64,000 nt of DNA. Source: Arthrobacter sp. MYb229 (GTDB taxonomy: Bacteria; Actinomycetota; Actinomycetes; Actinomycetales; Micrococcaceae). The DNA is taken from NCBI RefSeq assembly GCF_002975405.1, contig NZ_PCPS01000002.1, positions 186,001 through 250,000 of the forward strand, read 5' to 3'. Positions 50,354 to 63,229 of this stretch are shown piece after piece. A program made the translations under genes and the position numbers. The notes beneath the pieces were generated by a model. The model was not told the DNA's origin and did no database searches. It was given only the letters and a program-made list of their open reading frames with translations. Position 1 is the first letter of the stretch. The number at the start of each line of letters is the position of its first letter.

Positions 50354-50941
50354 CTACGGCAGGCGAAGAACTTTCATGGCGTTCGTGAGGAACTGAGCGG
50401 GGCTGAGTTCGTTGGATTGCGCCCAGCGGATCCACGCAGAGAAGGTGACGCTGCCAAAGGCCACCGAAAGGTAGTGGGCCTCATCTACGCTGAGTCCGCC
50501 GTCCACTAGATGCTGCAGCATTCGTCCGTTTTGCGGGGCCATCCGCAGGGGTGCCTGGGCCAACAGTTCGGGTTGTTCTGCGATTAGACGAAGCCGGCCG
50601 CGGGTGACTTCCAAATCCGGTAGCGATCGCAGGGCGGCTTGGATTGCCTCATGCATGGCGTCCAGCAACCGCATGTCAGAGCCTTGTGCGACATCCAATG
50701 CCTGTTCCGAAATTTCAGCAGCTTCGAGCAGTCCTCCCCACACCAGATCCGCCTTGGACGCGAAGTAGCGGTAGAGGCTTTTGCGTCCAATTCCCGCCTC
50801 TTCGGCAATTTGCGCCATGGAGACCGCGCCGTAGCCGTGTTTGGCAAAAAGTTCTAGGGCGGTGCGGGCCACCGATTCCGGATTAATGCTCTGCGGGCGT
50901 CCGGAGAGGCGTGTGGTGGAGAGATCCTGAGTGTCCGGCAT
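50354..50941 (-). CDS. TetR-family regulator of the neighbouring SDR gene
   Basis: A 195-residue TetR protein with helix-turn-helix YGAVSMAQIAEEAGIGRKSLYRYFASKADLV (about 33-63). It is divergent from the SDR gene at 51025, and a perfect inverted repeat of 9-bp arms lies in the 83-nt gap between them, which makes autoregulation and control of the SDR gene very likely. Confidence 0.9.
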   Translation of the reverse strand: MPDTQDLSTTRLSGRPQSINPESVARTALELFAKHGYGAVSMAQIAEEAGIGRKSLYRYFASKADLVWGGLLEAAEISEQALDVAQGSDMRLLDAMHEAIQAALRSLPDLEVTRGRLRLIAEQPELLAQAPLRMAPQNGRMLQHLVDGGLSVDEAHYLSVAFGSVTFSAWIRWAQSNELSPAQFLTNAMKVLRLP

Positions 50942-50963
50942 ATCTCAAGTATGACCCATTGAG

Positions 50964-50984
50964 TTATGACACTCTGTGTCATAA
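50964..50984. promoter_or_regulatory. TetR operator between tetR and SDR genes
   Basis: TTATGACAC (50964-50972) and GTGTCATAA (50976-50984) are exact inverted repeats around TCT. Length, symmetry and location 40 nt before the SDR start fit a TetR-family dimer site. Confidence 0.88.
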
Positions 50985-51024
50985 TATGAAGTTACTATTG
51001 TCTAAGTAATCAGAAAGAGCGGTC

Positions 51025-51801
51025 ATGAGCACGGAAAACGTTTGGCAGGAAAAAATCACCCCGGCACGTTTTGACGGCAAAACCGTCATTGTCACCGGCG
51101 CGGGTTCAGGCATCGGCAAGGCGACCGCCCTGCGCGTGGCACAAGAAGGCGGCAAGGTGATCGCGGCAGATATCAGCGGTGAGCGCCTCGGCGAATTGGT
51201 CGCAGAAAACCCGGAGCTGAGCATCGTTGCGGTAGCCGGTGACATCACCGATCAGCACGTCGTTGATCGGATCGTTGCCGCTGGCGAAGGCAAGGTCGAT
51301 GCCCTGGCCAACGTCGCGGGCATTATGGACAAGTTTGAGCCCATCCATGAGGTGGAAGACTCCACCTGGGAGCGCGTGTTCAACGTCAATTTGAATTCGA
51401 TCCTAAAGCTGACCCGGTCCGTAGTGCCCCTGATGCTAGAGGCCGAAAGCGGCACGGTTGTGAACGTCGCCTCGGAAGCGGGGCTGCGCGGCTCGGCAGC
51501 AGGCGTTGCCTACACCGCCTCGAAGCATGCGGTGGTCGGCATGACCAAAAACTCGGCCGTCATGTACGGGAAGAAGGGGATCCGCTTCAACGCAGTCGCC
51601 CCTGGTGCGGTGCAGACCAACATCGAGGCGCCGATGGATTCGGCATATGCCCAGCAGGTGATTGCGCCGCTGATGAGCATCATTCCCGGCATGGCAACCG
51701 CGGCTCAGTTGGCAGCTTCCATCACCTTCCTGCTCAGCGACGACAGCACCAACATCAATGGTGTGGTGCTTGCCTCGGACACCGGTTGGAGCGCCATCTA
51801 G
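51025..51801 (+). CDS. Short-chain dehydrogenase/reductase
   Basis: A classical SDR of 258 residues. The cofactor motif TGAGSGIGKA lies at about 20-29, NVAG at about 97-100, and the catalytic Y163 and K167 in YTASKHAVVG. The Asp in VIAADIS after the second strand predicts NAD(H) over NADP(H). A GAAAGAG ribosome site precedes the ATG. It appears to be the single target of the divergent TetR gene, an arrangement often linked to detoxifying or xenobiotic-responsive oxidoreductases; the substrate is unknown. Confidence 0.92.
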   Translation: MSTENVWQEKITPARFDGKTVIVTGAGSGIGKATALRVAQEGGKVIAADISGERLGELVAENPELSIVAVAGDITDQHVVDRIVAAGEGKVDALANVAGIMDKFEPIHEVEDSTWERVFNVNLNSILKLTRSVVPLMLEAESGTVVNVASEAGLRGSAAGVAYTASKHAVVGMTKNSAVMYGKKGIRFNAVAPGAVQTNIEAPMDSAYAQQVIAPLMSIIPGMATAAQLAASITFLLSDDSTNINGVVLASDTGWSAI

Positions 51802-52347: not shown

Positions 52348-53280
52348 CTAGAATCCGACGTTTTCACGGCCCTTTAGCGTCAACATCTCGCGGGCCTCGT
52401 CGGGGGTGGCGACTTCGAAGTTCAGTGCCTCGAGGATGGTACGGATACGGGTTACTTGCTCGGCGTTTGAGGCGGCAAGTTGGCCGGGCCCGATCCATAG
52501 CGAATCTTCTAGGCCAACGCGGACGTGAGAGCCCATCGCCGCACCTATGGTGGCCAGTGGCATCTGATTTTTACCGGCACCCAGGATCGACCACTCGTAG
52601 GAATCGCCGAAGAGCCGGTCGGCGGTCCGACGCATGTGCATGAGATCCTCGGGGTGCGCCCCGATGCCGCCGAGCAGCCCGAAGACAGACTGGACGAAGA
52701 GCGGTCCGCGGGCCAAGCCGCGTAATTGGAAGTGCGCGAGGTTGTTCAGGTGCGATATGTCGTAGCACTCGAACTCGAAGCGGGTGTCGTTCGTATTCCC
52801 GATCTCCAAGATCTTTTGGATGTCGGCGAAGGTGTTTTTAAAGACGAGATCCCGGGAGTTCTCCAGACCTTCACGTTCCCACTCGTGGCCAAATTCCTTG
52901 AAGCGATCAAGCATGGGGTAAAGCCCGAAGTTCATCGATCCCATGTTCAGCGAGGCGAGCTCCGGTTTGAACTCGATTACCGGGCGCATCCGCTCTTCCA
53001 CGCTCATATGCGGTGATCCACCGGTAGTGATGTTGATGATGGCGTCGGTGTTGGCCTTGAGCCTGGCCAGAATGGGCTCGAAGTGGGCGGGTTCCTGCGA
53101 AGGGCGCCCATCCTTCGGGTCCCGTGCATGCATGTGCACGATCGAGGCCCCGGCCTCGGCGGCACCGATTGCGGCATCGGCGATCTCATCGGCTGTGACC
53201 GGCAGATAAGGGGACATGGTGGGGGTGTGGATGGCGCCGGTAACGGCGGAGGTAATGATGACCTTGCGTGATGTTGCCAT
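52348..53280 (-). CDS. Beta-keto acid cleavage enzyme (BKACE, DUF849)
   Basis: A zinc-dependent TIM barrel of 310 residues. BKACE enzymes condense a beta-keto acid with acetyl-CoA, giving acetoacetate and a new CoA ester. The zinc motif H49-M-H51 lies in IVHMHARDPKDGRPS, and the late EDS in HVRVGLEDSLW supplies the other metal-site residues. The start ATG 53280 has AAGGAAAT upstream on the minus strand; the longer in-frame reading to 53409 overlaps the upstream SDR gene. It follows the SDR by 16 nt, which is expected to oxidise a beta-hydroxy acid to the keto substrate. The side-chain specificity cannot be read here. Confidence 0.92.
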   Translation of the reverse strand: MATSRKVIITSAVTGAIHTPTMSPYLPVTADEIADAAIGAAEAGASIVHMHARDPKDGRPSQEPAHFEPILARLKANTDAIINITTGGSPHMSVEERMRPVIEFKPELASLNMGSMNFGLYPMLDRFKEFGHEWEREGLENSRDLVFKNTFADIQKILEIGNTNDTRFEFECYDISHLNNLAHFQLRGLARGPLFVQSVFGLLGGIGAHPEDLMHMRRTADRLFGDSYEWSILGAGKNQMPLATIGAAMGSHVRVGLEDSLWIGPGQLAASNAEQVTRIRTILEALNFEVATPDEAREMLTLKGRENVGF

Positions 53281-53296
53281 GATGGTGTCGATTTCC

Positions 53297-54073
53297 TTAG
53301 TAGAGCTTTTCGGTGTTGCCGTCAACTGCCATGGCCTGGCCATTGACGCTGCGGGCAAGGGAACTGGACAGGAACACTGCCATGTCGGCGATGTCGCCGG
53401 GTTCGGCAAGCTGGTTCAGCGAGGACTGGCGGTGGTAGAGATTGGAGACTTCCTCAAGCGGGCGATCGAGCATGTCTGCCTTGGCCTTGATGACGGCTTC
53501 GATGCGCGGTCCGTTCACGGCACCTGGGCAGATGGCGTTGACGCGAATGCGCTCGTCACCCAGCTCGATGGACAGTGTTTTTGTCAGCCCGATCACTGCC
53601 CATTTGGAAGCCGAGTAGGGGCTTCGCCCGGCCATGCCCAGTCGTCCCGCGGCCGAAGAGAGATTGACGATCGAGGCCTCAGACCCCTTGCGCAGCAGTG
53701 GTAGCAGGTGCTTGATGCAATAGAACTGCCCGTGCACGTTGACGTCGAAGGTGGCCTTCCAAGCTTCGGCATCGAGAGTCTCGACCGGTCCGGTGGGCCC
53801 GGCGATTCCGGCGTTGTTGACCAGCACGTCCAGTCCGCCCAGCTCTTTGCTGACCGTGGCGGCGAGTTCAATGACCTGGGATTCATCAGACACGTCGCTT
53901 ACTGCCGCAGCGAATCCTGCCTTGCGGGCCGCCTCGACGGCCGCCGGATTTATATCCGTGACGAACACGGACGCCCCGAGGTCCTTGAATGCGGTGGCGA
54001 TGGCCAAGCCAATACCGGCGGCTCCCGCCGTGACCAGCACCCTGCGCTGGGTAAAATCCAGTTTGTTCTCCAT
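53297..54073 (-). CDS. Short-chain dehydrogenase (probable beta-hydroxy acid dehydrogenase)
   Basis: A classical SDR, 258 residues: cofactor loop TAGAAGIGLAIA (about 15-26), NNAG (86-89), catalytic Y153 and K157 in SPYSASKWAV. The Asp in VFVTDIN favours NAD. Located between an ACS-family transporter and a BKACE gene on the same strand, it most simply converts an imported beta-hydroxy acid to the beta-keto acid that BKACE cleaves. The role is inferred from order, not from a specific motif. Confidence 0.9.
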   Translation of the reverse strand: MENKLDFTQRRVLVTAGAAGIGLAIATAFKDLGASVFVTDINPAAVEAARKAGFAAAVSDVSDESQVIELAATVSKELGGLDVLVNNAGIAGPTGPVETLDAEAWKATFDVNVHGQFYCIKHLLPLLRKGSEASIVNLSSAAGRLGMAGRSPYSASKWAVIGLTKTLSIELGDERIRVNAICPGAVNGPRIEAVIKAKADMLDRPLEEVSNLYHRQSSLNQLAEPGDIADMAVFLSSSLARSVNGQAMAVDGNTEKLY

Positions 54074-54106
54074 GGTGGTGTTTTTCTTTCTTGGTTCGTG
54101 GGAAAT

Positions 54107-55429
54107 CTAGTGTGCGGCGACGGAGGACTTTGCAGGGTCTTCGGTACCGCGCTTGAGCTTGCGGGTCAAAAGAGCGCCGATGGTGCACATGGCGACAATG
54201 AACCAGAGGCCTGAGATCTTGCTGCCGGTGGCTTCCTCCATGAAGCCCATGACGTAGGGGCCGAGGAACCCGCCGAAGAGGCCGATGGTGTTCACGAAGG
54301 CGATGCCGCCTGCCAGCGCTGCACCGGAGAGGCGCGTTGCCGGGTACGTGAAGAGGATCGGCTGCAGGGCGAAGAAGTTGAAGGCGGCCAGGCAGAAGCC
54401 GATCATGCCCAGGATCGGGCCTCCGATGGCCCCGAGTGTGAAACCGGCGACGATACCGACCATTGTGGAGGTGGCGATCAATCGGGAGCGGGATGCGTTG
54501 GTGGCCAGTCGCGGCAACAGCAGGGCGCCGGCGGCGGAGAAAATCCATGGAATGGAGGTCAGCAGGCCGATCTGGATAGTGTTCAAAGCGCCGTAGGTGC
54601 CGATGATCGAGGGCAGGAAGAAACTCAAAGCGTAGACGGCAATCTGGTGCGTGAAGTAGATGGCCACGACCAGCAGGATCTGTTTGTCCTTTAGCACGTG
54701 GCGCAGCTTCGAGTTTCCGGAGGCCTTGGCCCCTGCGGTCTCCTCTGCCAGGATGCTTGCCTCGAGGTCCTCGGCTTCCTCCCGAGTGAGGAATTTGGAT
54801 TCGGTGGGCTTATTGGGCAGGCACTTCCAGACGACGAAGGCAAGGATGCAGGCGGGGATGCCCTCGATGATGAACATCCACTGCCAGCCGTGCAGGCCGC
54901 CGAGTCCGTCAAGGGTTAGCAGTACGCCGCCCAGCGGGGCTCCGACGATGTTGGCGATGGAAACTCCGAGCAGGAACATGCCGTTGGCCTTGGCGCGGTC
55001 CTTGACCACGAACCACTGGGTGATGAAGTAGATGACGCCGGGGAACAGCCCAGCCTCGGCGATGCCCAGCAGCATGCGCAGGATGTAGAAGGACCATTCG
55101 CCTTGTACGAAAGCCATGCAGGCAGAGAGGATTCCCCAGGTGATCATGATGCGCATGATCCAAAAGCGGGCACCGACCTTGTGCATGATCAAGTTCGAGG
55201 GGATCTCAGAGAGGGCATAGGTCAGAAAGAACAGCCCGGCGCCGATGCCGTAGGCTGTGGCGGAGATTCCGAGGTCGATTTCCATCCGGTCTTTGGCCAT
55301 GCCGATGTTGGTCCGGTCGATGAATGCCATGACGTACGCGGCAATCAGCAGCGGCATGATGCGCCGGAAAATGATCTTGTTGACGACTTCGGGGGACCGT
55401 TTTGTGGTCGTCTTTGCTTGTTTAGACAT
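54107..55429 (-). CDS. MFS transporter, anion:cation symporter (ACS) family
   Basis: A 440-residue importer with 12 predicted helices. FIDRTNIGMAKDRMEIDLG in helix 1 is the ACS-family opening, and LLGIAEAGLFPGVIYFITQWF in helix 4 is its signature. The family moves organic anions such as hexuronates, tartrate, phthalate and aromatic acids with protons or sodium. It is 33 nt upstream of the SDR gene in an operon headed by a LacI regulator, so an organic acid is the expected substrate of the module. Confidence 0.92.
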   Translation of the reverse strand: MSKQAKTTTKRSPEVVNKIIFRRIMPLLIAAYVMAFIDRTNIGMAKDRMEIDLGISATAYGIGAGLFFLTYALSEIPSNLIMHKVGARFWIMRIMITWGILSACMAFVQGEWSFYILRMLLGIAEAGLFPGVIYFITQWFVVKDRAKANGMFLLGVSIANIVGAPLGGVLLTLDGLGGLHGWQWMFIIEGIPACILAFVVWKCLPNKPTESKFLTREEAEDLEASILAEETAGAKASGNSKLRHVLKDKQILLVVAIYFTHQIAVYALSFFLPSIIGTYGALNTIQIGLLTSIPWIFSAAGALLLPRLATNASRSRLIATSTMVGIVAGFTLGAIGGPILGMIGFCLAAFNFFALQPILFTYPATRLSGAALAGGIAFVNTIGLFGGFLGPYVMGFMEEATGSKISGLWFIVAMCTIGALLTRKLKRGTEDPAKSSVAAH

Positions 55430-55507
55430 GTCAATGACTTTCTGGATCGGGCATGGTGGAAGAAGGCGGGGCGAGCGTCAGGGGATCAAGATTTTAGAGA
55501 GAATGGT

Positions 55508-56566
55508 TTATTGGGCGCCAAGGTCGGCTTGGCAGCCGCAGGTGCGACCGGTATGCAGTCGGTGACCGCATACCGAATGTTTGTAGGTGCTTCGCGGACG
55601 GGTGATCTGGTCAAGGAGGAGTTCGAAGGAGCGCTCAGCCATTTCTTTGACGGGTTGGACGATTGTGGTCAGCCCGATTAATCCGGAACGGCTGTGCGGC
55701 AACCCGTCGCTTCCGACCACCGCCACGTCATCTGGGATGCGCAGTCCGAGAGATAGCGCATGTTCCATAACGCCAATGGCGATCTCATCGGAGCCGCAGA
55801 CAATTGCTCGTGGAGGATTCGGTGAGCCGAGGAGTTTTTCGGCGGCTACACGGCCGCCGTCTGAATTCAGCCTGGTACTGATCTTTCGCTCCCCGGTGAT
55901 GAGCACGCCGACGGCTGCGGCCGTGCGCACGAAGGCATGTTCACGGGCCAGCGACGCGGTTGAAAAACGTGGCCCGATGACTGTGGCTATGTCCGTGTAG
56001 CCGTGGCCCAAGATGTGGTTCATGAGATCGGTGGCGGCGGCATCGTCGTCGATGCCTACGAAGTCGCCGGGAAGGTGGTCCGAGCGACGGGAGAGGCATA
56101 CATAGGGGATGCGCTTTTGGCGCAGCGTTCGCAACGCCCTGGAGTCTTCGCGTAGCGCGGCGGCGGAGATGACGCCATCCACGTTCCTAGCAGCTAGAGT
56201 TCCGGCGACCTGGGCGAGCGATTCGGGCTCGTCCTGGGTGGTAGCTACGAAGACCTCGAAACCCTCAGCGGCCGTGGCATTAATAATGTGCTGCGCCCAA
56301 CCCGTGTACATCTGATTGACGATGTTCGGAAGAATTAATCCCACGACCCGAGTCAGCAGCGGATCTCGACCCGCGATGTTCCTTGACGGGCGGAATCCCA
56401 TTTCATTGGCAATCTTCACGACGTGCCGCCGAGTCTCCAAAGAGGCTCCGGGGCGCCCATTCATGATGTAGCTGACAGTGGCCGTGGAAACGCCCGATGC
56501 ACGGGCTACCGCGGCGGCTGATACGCGGGCCGGACGGACTGGTGGGGTTTCGGTCGTGCTCGGCAT
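55508..56566 (-). CDS. LacI-family regulator of the BKACE operon
   Basis: A 352-residue LacI/GalR protein: DNA-binding domain AAAVARASGVSTATVSYIMNG with hinge MGFRPSRNIAG, then the effector domain. The C-terminus ends in an unusual Cys/His-rich stretch (CGHRLHTGRTCGC), a feature seen in several LacI proteins with similar HRL..C ends. GGAGG on the minus strand precedes the ATG. It reads in the same direction as the MFS, SDR and BKACE genes with a 78-nt gap, so regulator and pathway may share a promoter. Confidence 0.9.
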   Translation of the reverse strand: MPSTTETPPVRPARVSAAAVARASGVSTATVSYIMNGRPGASLETRRHVVKIANEMGFRPSRNIAGRDPLLTRVVGLILPNIVNQMYTGWAQHIINATAAEGFEVFVATTQDEPESLAQVAGTLAARNVDGVISAAALREDSRALRTLRQKRIPYVCLSRRSDHLPGDFVGIDDDAAATDLMNHILGHGYTDIATVIGPRFSTASLAREHAFVRTAAAVGVLITGERKISTRLNSDGGRVAAEKLLGSPNPPRAIVCGSDEIAIGVMEHALSLGLRIPDDVAVVGSDGLPHSRSGLIGLTTIVQPVKEMAERSFELLLDQITRPRSTYKHSVCGHRLHTGRTCGCQADLGAQ

Positions 56567-56643
56567 CTTTGCCTCCTTTTGCGGTGTCGCTTCTAAAGCG
56601 TGTTATTCCTTGGCGTGTGATGACCATTACAGACCTGAGATTT

Positions 56644-56662
56644 ACGTTAAGCAACGTTAAGC
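56644..56662. promoter_or_regulatory. Direct repeat upstream of the LacI-BKACE operon
   Basis: ACGTTAAGC occurs at 56644-56652 and again at 56654-56662, a 10-nt period, about 80 nt upstream of the lacI start. The second copy contains AACGTT, a central-CG core usual in LacI operators. Possible autoregulatory site. Confidence 0.45.
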
Positions 56663-57455: not shown

Positions 57456-58127
57456 GTGCTAGGGGAATTACCATCAGCCATCAGTGGGCAGCGAGTCGCC
57501 GACGAATTGCGGAGACTGATCCTCGAAGGCGAATTCAAGCCGGGGCAGCGTTTAGGGCAGGAAATGTTGGCCGATCGGTTCAATGCGAGCCGAATGCCGG
57601 TTCGCGAGGCCTTGCGCCAACTTGAGGCCGAGGGGTTAGTCTCGATCGTCCCGCATAGCGGCACCTGGGTGGCTAAGCTGGATGCCTTCGAATTTGATCA
57701 AACGTACAAGATGCGCGAGGTTGTCGAACCACTAGCTGTCCGCGAGAGCATCCCCAACCTCTCAGATGCTCAAATCGACCGGCTCGGCGAGTTGGTCGAG
57801 GAAATTGACGCGACTGCAGGACCGCATCGCGACGTAGAGGGATTCCTTCGCTTGGATCGGGAATTTCATTTGCTCACGTACGCAGGTGTGCGCCACCAAC
57901 CGCTTCTCGATTTAGTTCTGCGGCAGTGGAACACTACGCAGCACTATCGTCGCCTGCTTGTACACCGTCAGTCGGTGGAGGATGTCGTCGCAACGAATCT
58001 GGACCACGCGCTGATTCTCGATGGAATCCGACGCCGGGATCCGGAATCTGCCGCCGCCATGGTTCACCTGCATATTCGACGGACCAGGAATACCTTGGTT
58101 GACCCTACAGATGACACATTCGTGTAA
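57456..58127 (+). CDS. GntR-family regulator, FadR/FCD type
   Basis: A 223-residue regulator. The winged helix covers AISGQRVADELRRLILEGEF and NASRMPVREALRQLEAEGLVSIVPHSGTWV (about 5-72); the all-helical FCD effector domain fills the rest, with metal-site candidates D128 region (RLDREFHLLTY), and HALILDGIRRRD and HLHIRRT histidines. The GTG start is preceded by AAGGAGGA. FCD proteins usually sense small organic acids. Four ATTGGATCC sites and one near-match surround the gene and the downstream promoter, so it is very likely the regulator of the dehydrogenase-Liv operon. Confidence 0.9.
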   Translation: MLGELPSAISGQRVADELRRLILEGEFKPGQRLGQEMLADRFNASRMPVREALRQLEAEGLVSIVPHSGTWVAKLDAFEFDQTYKMREVVEPLAVRESIPNLSDAQIDRLGELVEEIDATAGPHRDVEGFLRLDREFHLLTYAGVRHQPLLDLVLRQWNTTQHYRRLLVHRQSVEDVVATNLDHALILDGIRRRDPESAAAMVHLHIRRTRNTLVDPTDDTFV

Positions 58128-58138
58128 TTGGATCCAAA
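58127..58138. promoter_or_regulatory. ATTGGATCCAAA site at the end of the GntR gene
   Basis: The stretch contains the 10-bp palindrome TTGGATCCAA (58128-58137), straddling the GntR stop codon. Same motif as at 57218, 57280 and 58353. Confidence 0.6.
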
Positions 58139-58169
58139 TCTGAGTTTAGTGTAAATATTAATTACCCTC

Positions 58170-58197
58170 ACGCCGCTACCAACGCAGGTAGCGGCGT
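58170..58197 (+). terminator. Rho-independent terminator after the GntR gene
   Basis: Arms 58170-58180 and 58187-58197 form a perfect 11-bp stem with a 6-nt loop followed by a T-rich run (TGTTATTTT). It separates the regulator transcript from the catabolic operon. Confidence 0.93.
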
Positions 58198-58299
58198 TGT
58201 TATTTTCCCCGTGTTTACTGTATTTTTTGGGAAATCTATTCTTGCATCGTAATGTCCGATGCTGTAGACGCTGGTAGTTTGATGAAGTGTTTTCTCACG

Positions 58300-58364
58300 A
58301 TTGGATACAATTTACTTGACCTGAGTCACATGCCTGTGTTTATCTGGAACCTATTGGATCCAAT
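58300..58364 (+). promoter_or_regulatory. Catabolic promoter flanked by two GntR operators
   Basis: TTGACC (58316-58321) and TTTATC (58339-58344) are 17 nt apart, giving a start near 58351. ATTGGATACAAT (58300-58311) lies just before the -35 and the perfect palindrome ATTGGATCCAAT (58353-58364) just after the start point; they differ by one base. Binding at both would enclose the promoter. Confidence 0.82.
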
Positions 58365-58447
58365 CTTGAATCTTGGATCTCCGGGTTACCGAACGCTCCG
58401 GCGTCGGAGAGCCCCAAAAATACGTACTTATGAAAGGCAAGACGACG

Positions 58448-59644
58448 ATGTCAAACCCATGGTGGCCTTCGGCTTCTGCTGATTCGGTGTTCCTCTCCCC
58501 GGCAGCCGTGATCGGCGGAGCCGGAGCGGTGCGCAATCTCTCGGAGATTCTTTCCACCCAGCTCGCAATCAAGACTGGATCCATTTTGCTGGCCGTGGAT
58601 GACGCCGTGGCAGCCGCCGGGCTCATCACTCCCGTCGAGGACGCACTGCGCGAGGCGGGCTACGAAGTCCACACCCGCGGAGGATTCGGTGCCGAACCTT
58701 CGGCAGAGATCGTTGATGCAGTGGCCGCCGAAGCTCGGGCGGCTGGTATTTCCGCGGTCGTTGGCATCGGTGGCGGTTCGGTTTTGGATTCGTCCAAGAT
58801 CGTCGCCCTGCTGTTGCGCAACGAAGGCGGTTCGGGGGACTGGACCGGAGTGGTGGCCCCCGAAAATGGGGTGGCACCACTGGTACTTGTTCCCACCACC
58901 TGCGGCACCGGCTCGGAAGCCACTCGCATCGCTATGGTCACGGTGGAGGGTAGCAAGCGTGCTTCCAGTTGCGCCCTGTATGTCCCGCGCGTCGCGGTGA
59001 TAGACCCCGAATTGGTGTCTTCGCTGCCTAAATCCGTGATCGCGGCTACCGGGATGGACGCTCTGGCCCACGCCATCGAAGCGCTCATGTCGACCAGCGC
59101 CTCCGTGCTCTCCTCCCACCACTCCCTGCGCGCCATCGAGCTGCTGGTCGGCAACCTGGAAAAGGCATACAACGGGGACAAGGATGCGTTGGCCAATGTC
59201 CTGTGGGCCTCGCATATCGCGGGCCAGTCACTGAACGCGGGCGTAGTGCTCGGCCACTCGCTGGCCTACTGCCTCGCGCACGAGCAGCCCATGCCTCACG
59301 GGGTGTCCTGTGCGATCGCCCTGCCTTACTGCATTGCCTACAACCAGAACCTGGAACCTGGATTGGCCAAGCTCATCGCCTCGGCGCTGACCGGCGGGCA
59401 AAGCGAGGACCTGCGAGTCGCCGCTACGGAGGTTTCGGAGCTCTCTGGTCGCATGGGACTTCCGCGGACGCTTGCCGAAGCGCGCATCAACCCCGACTCC
59501 GTCCCGGAAATGGCGAGATTGTGCGCGACCGACTATCCACGTCCCACTAACCCGGAGCCCTTCGACGAGCAGCTCCTTGCGGATCTTTTCCGCTCCATGG
59601 AGTCCGGCGATTTGGATCTCGCCTTCGCCGCCACCGCCCGCTGA
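58448..59644 (+). CDS. Iron-containing alcohol dehydrogenase
   Basis: A group III (Fe-ADH) enzyme, 398 residues. The NAD domain includes GIGGGSVLDSSK (about 108-119) and VPTTCGTGSEATRIAMV (about 150-166); metal-binding histidines lie in GMDALAHAIEAL, GHSLAYCLAHEQPMPHGVS. The start ATG 58448 has GAAAGG 9 nt upstream; the in-frame ATG at 58373 lies next to the operator and would add residues unlike the family. First gene of the operon, 28 nt before the aldehyde dehydrogenase, so the two probably act in series on an alcohol or hydroxy acid. Maleylacetate reductase is a related alternative but shorter. Confidence 0.92.
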   Translation: MSNPWWPSASADSVFLSPAAVIGGAGAVRNLSEILSTQLAIKTGSILLAVDDAVAAAGLITPVEDALREAGYEVHTRGGFGAEPSAEIVDAVAAEARAAGISAVVGIGGGSVLDSSKIVALLLRNEGGSGDWTGVVAPENGVAPLVLVPTTCGTGSEATRIAMVTVEGSKRASSCALYVPRVAVIDPELVSSLPKSVIAATGMDALAHAIEALMSTSASVLSSHHSLRAIELLVGNLEKAYNGDKDALANVLWASHIAGQSLNAGVVLGHSLAYCLAHEQPMPHGVSCAIALPYCIAYNQNLEPGLAKLIASALTGGQSEDLRVAATEVSELSGRMGLPRTLAEARINPDSVPEMARLCATDYPRPTNPEPFDEQLLADLFRSMESGDLDLAFAATAR

Positions 59645-59672
59645 CACATCCTCAGAAGGAAAGACTTTAACC

Positions 59673-61124
59673 ATGACTTACGGACTACTGAAGAACCTCG
59701 TCAACGGGGAATTCGTGGCCTCCGATTCCGGAGCCCAGATTGATGTCTACAACCCCGCAACCGCCGGGGAAAAAGTCGGCTCGGTGCCGGCCATGAGCAG
59801 CGATGAGGTCGCCCGGGTCTTCGCCGCCGCCGAAGCCGGGGCGAAGACCTGGAAGAAGACCAACCAGCTTCAGCGCGGACGTGTCCTGCTCAACGCCGCG
59901 GCGTTGATCCGTGAACGCAGCGATGAGCTGGCCTCGCTGATCGTCACCGAAATGGGTAAGACAAAGGCCGAGGCTACCGGAGAGGTCGGCAAGACCGCCG
60001 AATTCTTCGAATACTACGGTGGCATGGGCCGCGACAGCTACGGCGACTTCCTCGCCGACGCCCGCCCCGGAACCTTTGCCGCGCGCATCGTCGAGCCGCT
60101 CGGCGTAGTCCTGCTCATCACCCCGTGGAATGACCCCTTCCTGACCCCGGCCCGCAAACTGGGTCCGGCGCTGATCTCCGGCAACGCGGTGGTCATCAAG
60201 CCCGCCACGGTAACCCCGCTGATCACCCTGCGCCTGGCCGAAATCCTGCACGAGGCTGGTCTGCCCGCCGGCGTGCTGGGCACGGTTACCGGCCGCGGTT
60301 CCGAGCTGGGCGACGCACTCTTCGACTACGCCGGACTTCGCGCGGTGTCCTTCACCGGTTCCACCGCGGTGGGCAAGGGCATCCAGGCGAAACTGGCCGG
60401 CGGCGGCATCCGCGTGCAGACAGAAATGGGCGGAAAGAACGCGGCGGTCGTCCTAGACGACGCCGACCTTGACCTGGCCATTCCGACCATTGTCGCGGGG
60501 GCCTTCGCGCAGGCTGGACAGCGTTGCACGGCCACCAGCCGACTGATCGTCCAGAAGGGGATTGCCCTCGATGTGCGCACCCGCATTGCCGATGCCGTGG
60601 CGAAGCTGCGCGTCGCGGCCGGCTCTGGTGAGCAGGTTGACCTCGGACCGGTAGTGGACGAGGGCGCGCAGAGCACGATCCGCGGCCACGTCGAGAGAGC
60701 CATCACGCAGGGTGCCGAGGTGATTGCCCGCCGCGAGCTCGAAGGCGAGGCCGCCACCGCGGGCGCCTTCGTGGAGCCTACCTTCCTGGGCATCACCACC
60801 GAGCATGACATCTGGAAGGAAGAGGTCTTCGGGCCGGTGCTGGGCATGGTCGAGGTGGATTCGCTCGACGAGGCAATCGCCGCGGTCAACGACTCCGCGT
60901 ACGGGCTGTCCAGCGCAATCTTCACCCGCGATCTGGCCAACGCCTTCCGCTTCCTTGAAGAGGCTGACACCGGCCAGATCTCGATCAATCAGCCCACCAC
61001 CGGCTGGGACATCCACCACTCCTTCGGCGGATTCAAGGATTCCGGCTCCGGGTACAAGGAGCAGGGTCGGGACGCGCTGGCGTTCTACACCCGCATCAAG
61101 GCCGCGGCAATCCGCACGCACTAG
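59673..61124 (+). CDS. NAD(P)-dependent aldehyde dehydrogenase (ketoglutarate-semialdehyde type)
   Basis: A 483-residue ALDH with catalytic C285 in GQRCTATSR, general base E251 in TEMGGKNAAVV and oxyanion Asn in ITPWNDPF. The C-terminal ISINQPTTGWDIHHSFGGF and GSGYKEQGRDALAFYTR resemble 2,5-dioxovalerate (alpha-ketoglutarate semialdehyde) dehydrogenases, so a semialdehyde substrate is likely. The start at ATG 59673 follows AGAAGGAAAG; longer in-frame readings from 59472 overlap the Fe-ADH gene. Oxidises the product of the preceding dehydrogenase in the simplest model. Confidence 0.92.
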   Translation: MTYGLLKNLVNGEFVASDSGAQIDVYNPATAGEKVGSVPAMSSDEVARVFAAAEAGAKTWKKTNQLQRGRVLLNAAALIRERSDELASLIVTEMGKTKAEATGEVGKTAEFFEYYGGMGRDSYGDFLADARPGTFAARIVEPLGVVLLITPWNDPFLTPARKLGPALISGNAVVIKPATVTPLITLRLAEILHEAGLPAGVLGTVTGRGSELGDALFDYAGLRAVSFTGSTAVGKGIQAKLAGGGIRVQTEMGGKNAAVVLDDADLDLAIPTIVAGAFAQAGQRCTATSRLIVQKGIALDVRTRIADAVAKLRVAAGSGEQVDLGPVVDEGAQSTIRGHVERAITQGAEVIARRELEGEAATAGAFVEPTFLGITTEHDIWKEEVFGPVLGMVEVDSLDEAIAAVNDSAYGLSSAIFTRDLANAFRFLEEADTGQISINQPTTGWDIHHSFGGFKDSGSGYKEQGRDALAFYTRIKAAAIRTH

Positions 61125-61151
61125 GGCAGAAACTTCGAGAGGAAACGCACC

Positions 61152-61910
61152 ATGAACAACGAACTCTTTTCCTTGACCGGCCGACGCGCCGTCGTCACCG
61201 GCGGCGGTCGCGGGTTGGGCAAGGCCATTGCGGCCGGTCTGGCCTCCGCGGGCGCCACCGTGGTGGTGGTCTCCCGGACCGCCGCGGACGTCGAATCAGC
61301 TGCTGCGGAACTGGGCGCCAATGTTCATCCGCTCTCCCTCGATGTAGCCAGCGGCGCGGCCGGGCAGATGGTTGACGCCATGGAAAAAGCAGCTGGCGGG
61401 GCCATAGATATCGTGGTCCACGCGGCCGGGGTCCAGCACCGCCAGCCGGCCGAGGAATTCGACGCCGAGGCTTGGGATCACGTGTTGCGAGTCAACCTCA
61501 CCGCTCCCTTCGCGCTCAGCCAGGAAATCGGCCGACGCCAACTCGCGGGGGAGCGGGGCGGCAGCCACATCTTCGTCGGATCGCTCACCAGCCTGATCTC
61601 GGTTCCGGATGTGGCCGCCTATACGGCTAGCAAGTCCGGAGTCTATGGGCTGGTACGCAACCTCAGCACCGAATGGTCCTCGCGCGGCATCCGGGTCAAT
61701 GGGATCGGGCCCGGGTACTTCCGCACCGCGCTGACCGAGAAGGTCTTCGCCGACGAGGCGCGCTACCAGAAGATGCTGGACCGAATTCCCATGGGCCGCT
61801 TCGGCAATCCGGAGGAATTGGCCGGCACCGCGGTATTCCTCGCTTCGGATGCTGCCAGCTACCTCACCGGCCAGCTGCTGATGGTCGACGGCGGCTGGAC
61901 CGCCTCCTAG
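61152..61910 (+). CDS. Short-chain dehydrogenase (gluconate 5-dehydrogenase/KduD-like)
   Basis: A classical SDR of 252 residues: TGGGRGLGKAIA (about 16-27), HAAGVQH, catalytic Y147 and K151 in AAYTASKSGVYG, and the C-terminal GRFGNPEELAGTAVFLASD with a family-typical end. It resembles sugar-acid SDRs such as IdnO and KduD, pointing to a polyhydroxy acid or keto sugar. It lies 27 nt after the ALDH gene and 50 nt before the binding-protein gene. Confidence 0.92.
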   Translation: MNNELFSLTGRRAVVTGGGRGLGKAIAAGLASAGATVVVVSRTAADVESAAAELGANVHPLSLDVASGAAGQMVDAMEKAAGGAIDIVVHAAGVQHRQPAEEFDAEAWDHVLRVNLTAPFALSQEIGRRQLAGERGGSHIFVGSLTSLISVPDVAAYTASKSGVYGLVRNLSTEWSSRGIRVNGIGPGYFRTALTEKVFADEARYQKMLDRIPMGRFGNPEELAGTAVFLASDAASYLTGQLLMVDGGWTAS

Positions 61911-61960
61911 GCGCCAGCCATTCGACCACCCATCACTCACACCGAACATCGGAGACAAAG

Positions 61961-63229
61961 ATGTCACCCACCGAGCGTGGATTTAACCGGAGGTCATTTC
62001 TCCGGTACTCCGGAGCGGGTCTGCTTGCCTTGGCTGCGGCTCCCGCACTGGCCAGTTGCGCCTCCCGCGGCACGGACGCAACCACCCTGCGACTGGGGGC
62101 CATGTACCCTGTATCGGGCACTAACGCTCTGCTCGGCGAGGAATCATGGCGCGGAGTGCAGATCGCCACCGACCTGCGCAACGCAGGTGGAGGTGTCGCT
62201 GGCAAGCAGATCGAAATGGTGTTCGCCGACGTTCCGGATGTGAACACCGCGGCCTCGGAGGCCCGGCGCCTGGTGTTCAACAAGAACATCAAGCTCGGCT
62301 TCGGCACCTACAGCTCGTCGCTGGCTCTGGCGGCGACCGAAGTCTTTGCCCGCACCGGAAACGCCTACGTGGAGCTCGGCGCGGTCTCCGAGGCAGTGAC
62401 CACCCGAGGCTATGACAAGGTCTTCCGACTGAACCCCACGGCCGCGGACATGACCGGACTGCATATGGACTTCATCCAGAACTACCTGGCCGGAGCGCTG
62501 GGCAAGCCAGTGAAGGATTTACGCGTGATGATGCTCCACGAGGACTCCTCCTACGGGCAGTCCATCGTTTCGCTGGCCAAGGCAGCGGCTGACAAAATCG
62601 GCCTGCAGCATTTCGAAGCGGAACCCTACAGCGCCAAGTCCACCGATCTGTCATCCACCGTGCTGCGCATGAAGTCGCAGGAGCCCGACATCGTCCTGGC
62701 CGTGTCCTATGCCGCGGACGCGGTCCTGCTCGGCCGCCAAATCCGCGACAACAATGTCAAGCTCGGCGCCTTCGTGGGCACCGGTGGCGGCCACAGCCTG
62801 GCCAGCTTCCAGAAAGCGCTCGGCGATGCGGCGGACGGGGTGTTCGACGTCGACTTCACACAGATCCACGTCAACCGCGACTTCACGCCGGGCATCGAGG
62901 ACTTCATCTCCGAATACCACAAACGCTGGAACGCGGAACCGGCCTCCGGACATTCGCTGAGCAATTTCACCGGCGCCCAGATGCTCTTCGACATCCTGGA
63001 GACCACCGGGGGAAACGACGATCCGGAGGTGTTCGCCGCCGCGGCGCGAAAGTACCACCGAGAGGCCGGGACTTCGGCCGCCGGGTGGGGCTACGAGCTC
63101 GACGCGCAGAACCAGAACCAACAGGGAAGCATGTACGTCATGCAATGGTCCGGCTCCAAGCTGGAGACCGTCTACCCGCCCGAGGCCGCCGTCCGCGCGC
63201 CGAAACTCATCACACCATTCGGTTTGTGA
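61961..63229 (+). CDS. Liv-type ABC transporter binding lipoprotein with Tat signal
   Basis: A 422-residue binding protein of the LivJ/amide class (Peripla_BP_6). The N-terminus FNRRSFLRYSGAGLLALAA carries a twin-arginine motif and lipobox LASC (about Cys 32). The mature domain starts LRLGAMYPVSGTNALLGEE, typical for the class. The start ATG 61961 is preceded by GGAGA; the in-frame reading from 61673 overlaps the SDR gene. Liv-type importers also take urea, amides, aromatic acids and other non-amino-acid ligands; the dehydrogenase neighbours argue against ordinary leucine/valine import. Confidence 0.92.
   Translation: MSPTERGFNRRSFLRYSGAGLLALAAAPALASCASRGTDATTLRLGAMYPVSGTNALLGEESWRGVQIATDLRNAGGGVAGKQIEMVFADVPDVNTAASEARRLVFNKNIKLGFGTYSSSLALAATEVFARTGNAYVELGAVSEAVTTRGYDKVFRLNPTAADMTGLHMDFIQNYLAGALGKPVKDLRVMMLHEDSSYGQSIVSLAKAAADKIGLQHFEAEPYSAKSTDLSSTVLRMKSQEPDIVLAVSYAADAVLLGRQIRDNNVKLGAFVGTGGGHSLASFQKALGDAADGVFDVDFTQIHVNRDFTPGIEDFISEYHKRWNAEPASGHSLSNFTGAQMLFDILETTGGNDDPEVFAAAARKYHREAGTSAAGWGYELDAQNQNQQGSMYVMQWSGSKLETVYPPEAAVRAPKLITPFGL

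Follow-up and report, generated by a model that had tools for sequence, protein, structure and literature searches.

The window, a stretch of 64,000 nucleotides from Arthrobacter sp. MYb229, carries between positions 56566 and 52348 four intact and co-oriented genes on the minus strand, preceded by two short upstream elements. The features are as follows, with the substrate assignments of the permease and enzymes being predictions from sequence comparison.

56647..56660, minus strand: operator-like element TTAACGTTGCTTAA, a putative LacI site upstream of lacI
56616..56631, minus strand: site TGTAATGGTCATCACA, matching the pattern TGT[AG][AT]-N6-TCACA, which we take to be CRP/GlxR-like
55508..56566, minus strand: LacI-family regulator, encoded at the head of the operon (PF00356 and Peripla_BP; orthologous within the family)
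54107..55429, minus strand: ACS-type MFS permease, probable 2-deoxyribonate importer (PF07690; MFS clade)
53297..54073, minus strand: SDR, probable 2-deoxyribonate 3-dehydrogenase (PF13561/PF00106; 74-row clade)
52348..53280, minus strand: BKACE, probable 2-deoxy-3-keto-ribonate cleavage enzyme (PF05853; NF053538; clade)

The intergenic gaps are 78 bp between lacI and the MFS gene, 33 bp between the MFS and SDR genes, and 16 bp between the SDR and BKACE genes, in agreement with an earlier note on this DNA that had described a single-direction operon with short gaps downstream of the MFS gene. BKACE is assigned an ATG start at 53280, where the alignment with the solved structure 3E49 begins, and on the same alignment the open reading frame 52348-53409 is over-extended as a description of the gene. 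Divergent Fe-ADH, ALDH and SDR genes at 57-62 kb and a further SDR at 51 kb were considered as operon parts and rejected, because they do not belong to clusters common to at least three of 40 neighbourhoods. No plasmid showed a near copy of the operon in a DNA search with window positions 40001-64000. The four-gene set is present with its order unchanged in three of 17 other genomes of the genus, and, of 395 genomes sampled from the window's family, 35 encode a close ortholog of its BKACE (at least 85%); most of the 35 family loci contain the set with variations, and this repetition across genus and family indicates that the arrangement exceeds chance. Two of the 35 (L181 and L187) have no SDR, MFS or lacI gene beside BKACE despite sufficient flanking sequence. 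Locus counts are taken from a tblastn table; the gene caller missed several SDRs, and some BKACEs under longer shadow frames.

The BKACE protein matches PF05853 at 360 bits (cut-off 24.8) across profile positions 1-274 of 274. Its active site was compared with others by sequence, and the HxHARD and VGLEDS motifs – which, following the Kce literature, we take to be the zinc-ligand motifs – are present and invariant in an alignment of five sequences, so that the motifs are indeed intact, as first noticed. A tree was built by a quick method from 155 of 157 chosen loci, leaving out L016, which has no such BKACE, and L021, whose BKACE is only 28% identical. The window's protein falls in a clade of 56 rows (SH-aLRT 98) that includes Pseudomonas loci with the published gene order for deoxyribonate oxidation, and it is 71% identical to the BKACE of a P. 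simiae-type locus in that clade. By hand-made counts, a partner SDR accompanies 49 of the 56 rows of the window clade and 19 of 20 P. bryophila-type rows, and none of the 79 others.

2-Deoxyribonate is the oxidised form of the sugar of DNA. Its oxidation has been attributed in P. simiae WCS417 to the cluster PS417_07245-07265 by a study covering four genera, which assayed the dehydrogenase in vitro, deduced the cleavage step from genetics, and reports a mild lactonase phenotype on deoxyribonate itself (Price 2019, PMC6365646). Loci of the P. simiae, P. bryophila and K. michiganensis types were recognised here by gene order, and the similarity figures refer to stand-in loci; P. simiae, P. phytofirmans and P. 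bryophila were not among the best 80 of 592 relatives in a scan of genome contigs. The P. simiae gene order occurs in five of 18 fetched Pseudomonas-family loci, whose BKACEs and MFSs are 70-71% and 54-57% identical to those of the window, and whose lactonase and second MFS are 69-70% and 66-67% identical to copies linked to the operon elsewhere in the window's family. The window has SDR, BKACE and MFS in common with P. simiae, and its BKACE shares a clade with loci so arranged, but its own gene order differs, the operon is headed by lacI, and it lacks the lactonase and second MFS, which have matches only in some relatives of the window; the SDR is only 44% identical to that of a P. simiae-type locus. 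Relatives of the window also link a glycerate kinase and a CoA-transferase, unlike P. simiae. The P. bryophila cluster (H281DRAFT_00640-00644, PMC6365646) likewise keeps SDR, BKACE and MFS together, but its P. caribensis stand-in has a BKACE of another clade (55%), an MFS at 40%, an AraC regulator and one extra dehydrogenase gene, and this type was set aside as the nearest relative because the Pseudomonas loci are closer. In K. michiganensis (BWI76_RS23695-23730) Price reports a CoA-ester route with a synthetase and a thiolase, and neither a deoxyribonate dehydrogenase nor a BKACE (PMC6365646). The K. pneumoniae stand-in, a plasmid cluster with the K. michiganensis gene order except for an inserted IS element, shares with window relatives a lactonase, a second MFS and a glycerate kinase, and its first MFS is 53% identical to that of the window. 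We note separately that Caballeronia cordobensis carries three SDR-BKACE clusters, possibly with different substrates; an early reading of these paralogous clusters as reflecting a different substrate was weakened by the comparison of the Pseudomonas loci.

The permease, a match to MFS_1 (PF07690), is similar to TIGR00893 (267.7 bits, cut-off 395) and HpaX (260.5 bits, cut-off 615.4) but falls short of both NCBIfam cut-offs. In the MFS tree it groups with the MFSs of the Klebsiella and Pseudomonas clusters at a fork supported at only 87/83. A Pseudomonas oryzihabitans MFS encoded beside an enolase-type gene nests among these deoxyribonate-cluster proteins, and the clade is therefore not exclusive to deoxyribonate.

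From the gene content, the conserved linkage and the membership of these clades, we infer, with a probability of about three in four, that the operon encodes the oxidation and cleavage of 2-deoxy-D-ribonate, a five-carbon 2-deoxy sugar acid. Import of 2-deoxy-D-ribonate would fall to the MFS, the SDR would oxidise it at C3 to 2-deoxy-3-keto-ribonate, and BKACE would transfer the acetyl part onto acetyl-CoA, with acetoacetate and glyceryl-CoA as the probable products. A 3-oxoacid CoA-transferase encoded elsewhere in the genome could then convert acetoacetate to acetoacetyl-CoA, and a glycerate kinase, also encoded elsewhere, could yield 2-phosphoglycerate. The genome does contain two glycerate kinases (PF02595) and two CoA-transferase pairs, all unlinked to the operon, although both are general families and their genomic presence is weak evidence for the pathway. 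The order of events proposed in the earlier note, from permease to an SDR making a beta-keto acid and a BKACE releasing acetoacetate and an acyl-CoA, agrees with this predicted route, as does its guess at a polyhydroxylated, sugar-acid-like substrate; by the note's own test of placement in an assigned subgroup, the grouping of both BKACE and MFS with deoxyribonate-type clusters largely overturns its description of the substrate as unknown. Most likely this is a deoxyribonate-type route known in other bacteria and encountered here in a new lineage. It would provide a likely substrate for an operon of enzymes that otherwise carry generic names or one derived from 3,5-dioxohexanoate, would extend deoxyribonate-type catabolism from four genera to, apparently, the Micrococcaceae, and would suggest functions for the generically named solved structures 5UNL (SDR) and 3E49 (BKACE).

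The related loci of the family add further genes to the set. A glycerate kinase is linked in 20 of the 35 loci, from four genera, which speaks for glycerate being the C3 product; in 19 of them it lies directly downstream of BKACE, and in the locus L171 it sits at the operon's end. Identity between the linked kinase and its counterpart in the Klebsiella cluster is only 32%, and both linked glycerate kinases tested pass the TIGR00045 cut-off. A linked 3-oxoacid CoA-transferase is found in nine of the 35 loci, a thiolase in six, and a lactonase together with a second MFS in five. The window and its three genus mates have no linked glycerate kinase, CoA-transferase or lactonase, and no second MFS lies beside the window operon. 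The fullest arrangement described here, that of L171, has on one strand lacI, lactonase, MFS2, MFS, SDR, BKACE, scoA, scoB, thiolase and glycerate kinase, the last four genes overlapping by 1 or 4 bp or lying 12 bp apart. As a tentative suggestion, which we place somewhat short of even odds, ScoAB in these fuller operons could move CoA from glyceryl-CoA directly to the acetoacetate of the same turnover, which would leave glycerate to the linked kinase and supply the linked thiolase with acetoacetyl-CoA. If true, these operons would recycle CoA in a natural and self-balancing form of what was engineered in the CORE cycle, which also follows BKACE with a CoA-transferase and a thiolase acting on acetoacetate, but is synthetic and leads from malonate semialdehyde to formyl-CoA (PMC11961710). 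It would also fill the glyceryl-CoA hydrolase step that the curated pathway lists as unknown (PMC9007349). The family's complete operons offer a place to examine this one step of the pathway that has no known gene. Literature searches on 3-keto-5-aminohexanoate cleavage with glycerate kinase, and on DUF849 with Arthrobacter, found no paper.

The SDR, the enzyme on which the choice of substrate depends, is the least conserved part of the operon among proteobacterial counterparts. It belongs to a 74-row clade (100/99) with P. simiae-type and P. bryophila-type SDRs but forms a sister branch outside the proteobacterial clade, at 44-50% identity, and its sequence therefore does not fix the stereoisomer; equally close SDRs (48%) are found near the 28% BKACE (L021) and in L016, an aconitase-X cluster that is unrelated. 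This divergence is what would be expected if the operon served another 2-deoxy-aldonate, for example the C3 epimer 2-deoxy-D-xylonate, through the same or the mirror beta-keto acid and an SDR of different stereochemistry. Several proteobacterial loci pair BKACE with both an SDR and a 3-hydroxyacyl-CoA-dehydrogenase-type enzyme, as if handling two C3 epimers, and paralogous clusters can coexist in a single genome. We nevertheless consider such a substrate rather unlikely, as the lactonase and both MFSs of the larger operons match those of clusters with published relatives that show phenotypes on deoxyribonate.

A route for a C6 or other beta-hydroxy acid unrelated to sugar acids, such as 3,5-dioxohexanoate, is suggested by the NCBIfam equivalog NF053538, which the window's BKACE passes at 546.3 bits (cut-off 430), and by Paracoccus BKACE15, which matches it at 435 bits and whose confirmed substrates include 3,5-dioxohexanoate and 5-hydroxy-beta-ketohexanoate (PMC11961710). 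The same model, however, accepts the P. caribensis BKACE (512 bits), from a locus with the published P. bryophila gene order; because it takes in BKACEs of deoxyribonate-type clusters, its name does not separate substrates and was not adopted at face value. With the linked glycerate kinase also a misfit for a C6 methyl-ketone acid, this route is improbable. A carnitine-type operon is scarcely credible: dehydrocarnitine cleavage is an assigned BKACE role, and SDR and BKACE of the wider family adjoin carnitine-type genes in Pseudomonas, but this operon has no betaine transporter or carnitine dehydrogenase, its BKACE stands apart in the tree from those beside carnitine-type genes (e.g. L031) and so outside the dehydrocarnitine subgroup that had been raised, and the role is better suited to the genome's second full BKACE, about 33% identical, which adjoins a BCCT transporter and a gene resembling L-carnitine dehydrogenase (332.8 bits, short of the 414-bit cut-off).

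For the probable deoxyribonate operon itself, control presumably lies with the LacI protein, which has both the LacI HTH (PF00356) and the periplasmic-binding-like domain (PF13377) by which LacI/GalR members are recognised, though it passes no NCBIfam cut-off; its ortholog is present in 32 of the 35 family loci. The earlier argument from LacI control to a sugar-acid-like substrate arrived at a substrate type that holds up, but the argument itself is weak, since several proteobacterial relatives have GntR or AraC regulators. We suppose that LacI responds to a compound of the pathway and acts as a repressor at a single operator preceding lacI; it is probably autoregulating. No near-perfect palindrome common to all lacI upstream regions was found among the 14 loci listed, and a scan for promoters and terminators gave nothing usable (one promoter-like match against 2.2 expected). 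The operator-like element (56660-56647) was found through 10-mers common to lacI upstream regions; it is the only match in the genome with up to one mismatch allowed, and 27 of the 32 regions upstream of lacI contain its 13-base core without a mismatch. The pattern of the neighboring CRP/GlxR-like site is likewise found upstream of lacI in 25 of the 32 loci.

Four genes, all intact and with Pfam-confirmed families, follow an operator-like element on one strand:

56660-56647, minus strand, operator-like element TTAACGTTGCTTAA, a putative LacI site upstream of lacI
56566-55508, minus strand, lacI
55429-54107, minus strand, MFS transporter gene
54073-53297, minus strand, SDR gene
53280-52348, minus strand, BKACE (beta-keto acid cleavage enzyme) gene

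The gaps between lacI and MFS, MFS and SDR, and SDR and BKACE are 78, 33 and 16 bp, and the BKACE start codon is the ATG at 53280 rather than the TTG of the mechanical ORF. The operon is best classed as an oxidative sugar-acid operon of the deoxyribonate type, a known kind in a new lineage. Neither MFS nor LacI has an NCBIfam name above cut-off, and among the 25 best NCBIfam models listed for the SDR only a FabG-type subfamily model is above cut-off (230.9 versus 222 bits). The BKACE passes NF053538 (546.3 bits versus a cut-off of 430), the equivalog for 3,5-dioxohexanoate:acetyl-CoA acetone transferase; since this model accepts the BKACEs of the window and of the relatives' loci L030, L123 and L171, which represent two clades and differing gene contexts, the name probably over-annotates. 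By sequence match, the BKACE is nearest among solved structures to 3E49 (509 bits) and the SDR to 5UNL (226 bits, against 134 for the next best). We note that 5UNL, named 3-ketoacyl-ACP reductase in the PDB, aligns over the full length, at 562.7 bits, with an SDR (L241:4948-5745) from a GntR-SDR-BKACE-MFS cluster of Burkholderia multivorans, so a structure for this SDR type is already solved.

The deoxyribonate passages of Price et al. (PMC6365646) describe oxidation in P. simiae by an SDR (PS417_07245) and a BKACE (PS417_07250), with 07255 encoding a lactonase and 07260 and 07265 MFS proteins. They also cover P. bryophila, where the oxidation genes have a second arrangement, and K. michiganensis, which uses a CoA-ester route. 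We recognised clusters of these types by gene order, through stand-in loci. Within the family of a Stutzerimonas locus, 23 of 298 genomes have a BKACE at E <= 1e-90, in 27 places, of which 18 were compared; five (L228, L231, L233, L235 and L236) carry SDR, BKACE, lactonase, MFS and MFS on a single strand, and the remaining 13 comprise two of P. bryophila type, two mixed and nine without the set. These five Pseudomonas loci of P. simiae type encode BKACEs 70-71% and MFS proteins 54-57% identical to the window's, and lactonases and second MFS proteins 69-70% and 66-67% identical to copies linked in the window's family. The window MFS also led to a plasmid cluster of Klebsiella pneumoniae whose gene order is that of K. 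michiganensis, except that an IS element separates thiolase from MFS. The cluster's first MFS is 53% identical to the window's and its lactonase 70.1% identical to that of L228, the lactonases of P. simiae and K. michiganensis being 70% identical according to the same passages (PMC6365646); its kinase is only 32% identical to the one linked in the window's family. P. caribensis L030 (AraC, BKACE, MFS, SDR, SDR) stood in for P. bryophila. Among the titles and abstract openings listed for open-access papers on BKACE, deoxyribonate and glyceryl-CoA we found no treatment of this operon in actinobacteria.

Trees of BKACE (155 rows, quick method), SDR (92 rows) and MFS (53 rows), rooted for drawing only, bear on this comparison. 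A 56-row BKACE clade (SH-aLRT 98) holds the 35 loci of the window's family and L190, together with the five Pseudomonas loci and other loci from proteobacteria; P. bryophila-type BKACEs form a separate clade. A partner SDR of the deoxyribonate-dehydrogenase kind (>=40% identity, >=180 bits, <=6.5 kb from the BKACE; counted by hand) accompanies 49 of 56 BKACEs in the window's clade, 19 of 20 in the P. bryophila-type clade and 0 of 79 elsewhere, indicating that a single SDR lineage partners two lineages of BKACE. The BKACE of L021, at 28%, is below the threshold of this tree, yet a partner-kind SDR lies a few kb away. Partner SDRs form a single 74-row clade (100/99), separate from other SDRs, in which those of the window's family are sister (fork 80/91) to most proteobacterial ones; the window SDR is 44-50% identical to these, and the clade includes an SDR from an aconitase-X cluster. 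The MFS tree unites the window's family with Pseudomonas, Caballeronia, B. multivorans and the first Klebsiella MFS (87/83) and sets the P. bryophila type apart (97/100); nested in the window-family/Pseudomonas/Klebsiella clade is a P. oryzihabitans MFS adjoining an enolase-type gene. Caballeronia cordobensis has three SDR-BKACE clusters (L123, L125 and L126) spanning two BKACE clades, two of them with GntR regulators and an MFS or sugar-ABC transporter, and these may serve different epimers. Because SDR identity is low, SDR and MFS relatives occur in other contexts and C. cordobensis has three clusters, the substrate may be a stereoisomer other than 2-deoxy-D-ribonate.

In the proposed pathway the MFS would import the substrate acid, the SDR would oxidise it at C3, and BKACE would transfer an acetyl group to acetyl-CoA, giving acetoacetate and glyceryl-CoA; a CoA-transferase or hydrolase would convert the latter to glycerate, and glycerate kinase would form 2-phosphoglycerate. 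The family loci offer candidates for these last steps. When genes up to 7 kb from BKACE on its own strand are counted in the 35 loci (the window included), four of which (L167, L182, L184 and L187) are shortened by contig ends, lacI is linked in 32, SDR in 33, MFS in 28, glycerate kinase in 20, scoA and scoB (3-oxoacid CoA-transferase genes) in nine each, thiolase in six, and lactonase and a second MFS in five each. SDR, MFS and lacI are all absent from L181 and L187, though the sequence extends far enough to show them. Representatives are above cut-off for TIGR00045 (glycerate kinase), TIGR02429/TIGR02428 (CoA-transferase) and TIGR01930 (thiolase), and the representative lactonase belongs to PF08450. 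Linked kinases occur in four of nine genera (g10, g8, g23 and g32); in 19 loci the kinase gene immediately follows BKACE, and in L171 it closes the operon. No kinase was found near the other phylum BKACEs examined (L190-L194). Linked scoA occurs in five of nine genera. In genus g23 the CoA-transferase genes lie ~3-4 kb downstream of BKACE, past an opposite-strand gene in three of four such loci, and may represent a neighbouring operon. In L169, L171, L181, L182 and L188 (four genera) scoA/scoB are directly 3' of BKACE, and L171 has the whole gene set on a single strand, with overlaps of 1 bp (scoA-scoB) and 4 bp (thiolase-kinase).

The glyceryl-CoA step is given as an unknown hydrolase in the curated pathway of PMC9007349, and the P. 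simiae passages of PMC6365646 report that its gene was not found and that no CoA-transferase had a phenotype, which Price et al. ascribed to redundancy. Directly linked ScoAB in five loci offers a natural case in which to test for CoA transfer from glyceryl-CoA to acetoacetate, and the fuller operons give an interesting hint as to which enzyme the pathway lacks. This proposal extends an earlier one, since the Klebsiella passages of the same paper (PMC6365646) already suggest a CoA-transferase for glyceryl-CoA in that organism's different route. The CORE cycle, as outlined in PMC11961710, uses the same logic, formyl-CoA donating CoA to acetoacetate, but with that donor in place of the glyceryl-CoA proposed here. 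The plain alternative is that ScoAB is an ordinary SCOT with succinyl-CoA as donor.

Neither the window nor any of its three genus mates has a linked kinase, scoA/scoB, thiolase, lactonase or second MFS. The window genome has two glycerate kinases and two CoA-transferase pairs, all unlinked to the operon; one pair adjoins a thiolase and is 82-83% identical to a g23 copy. A short-chain fatty acid transporter (PF02667), which could handle acetoacetate, lies beside a genus mate's operon (L025:12554-13903) and the B. multivorans cluster (L241:8334-9797).

The simplest reading of regulation is that LacI would be a dedicated autoregulator acting at TTAACGTTGCTTAA. This element is the sole match in the 4-Mb genome at <=1 mismatch and the one match in the window at <=2 (0.05 expected). 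Upstream of lacI, 27 of 32 loci carry its 13-base core TTAACGTTGCTTA without change, while the three genus mates and L166 have one mismatch and L189 has two; the flanks vary, and TGT[AG][AT]-N6-TCACA follows in 25 of 32. The exact core is absent from all seven proteobacterial loci tested.

Six of 18 genomes of the genus have BKACE matches (E <= 0.001), four of them orthologs (87-100%, the window's own included) and two only partial (34-50%). At E <= 1e-90, even draws gave 39 of 395 family genomes, 35 at >=85% identity to the window BKACE, and six of 396 phylum genomes, one being the window's and the other five matching at 49-61%. DNA of window positions 1-24000 matches four plasmid records, best those of Arthrobacter sp. 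StoSoilB13 and Pseudarthrobacter psychrotolerans (31% and 17% covered, 73-74% identity), so the family is probably Micrococcaceae. The window's LacI, MFS, SDR and BKACE are 88-91%, 92-97%, 84-89% and 94-97% identical to those of four g23 loci, against 76-77%, 85-86%, 76-80% and 87-88% within its own genus, and the window proteins cluster with g23 in all three trees, which makes transfer of the operon between genera likely.

Several neighbouring and paralogous loci were also noted. The window genome's other full BKACE shares its locus (L029:7285-11588, G000:C21) with a BCCT transporter (PF02028) and with a gene that resembles L-carnitine dehydrogenase but scores below cut-off; this is a probable carnitine operon. 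Window positions 57456-63229, divergent, are probably a separate catabolic operon encoding GntR, an iron-type alcohol dehydrogenase, an aldehyde dehydrogenase, a KduD-like SDR and, by eye, a branched-chain-type ABC binding protein. At 50354-51801, outside the operon, a TetR regulator weakly resembling mycofactocin MftR (below cut-off) is divergent from an SDR. A second copy of the operon's BKACE survives as a 3' remnant (L028:8511-8750; G000:C19:186507-186749) of 80 residues, 96% identical (DNA 80% over 242 bases). It is flanked on one side by a gene that looks like truB and on the other by one for a P-type ATPase (PF00122), past which lie genes resembling ArsR and resolvase; the truB, ArsR and resolvase names were assigned by eye.
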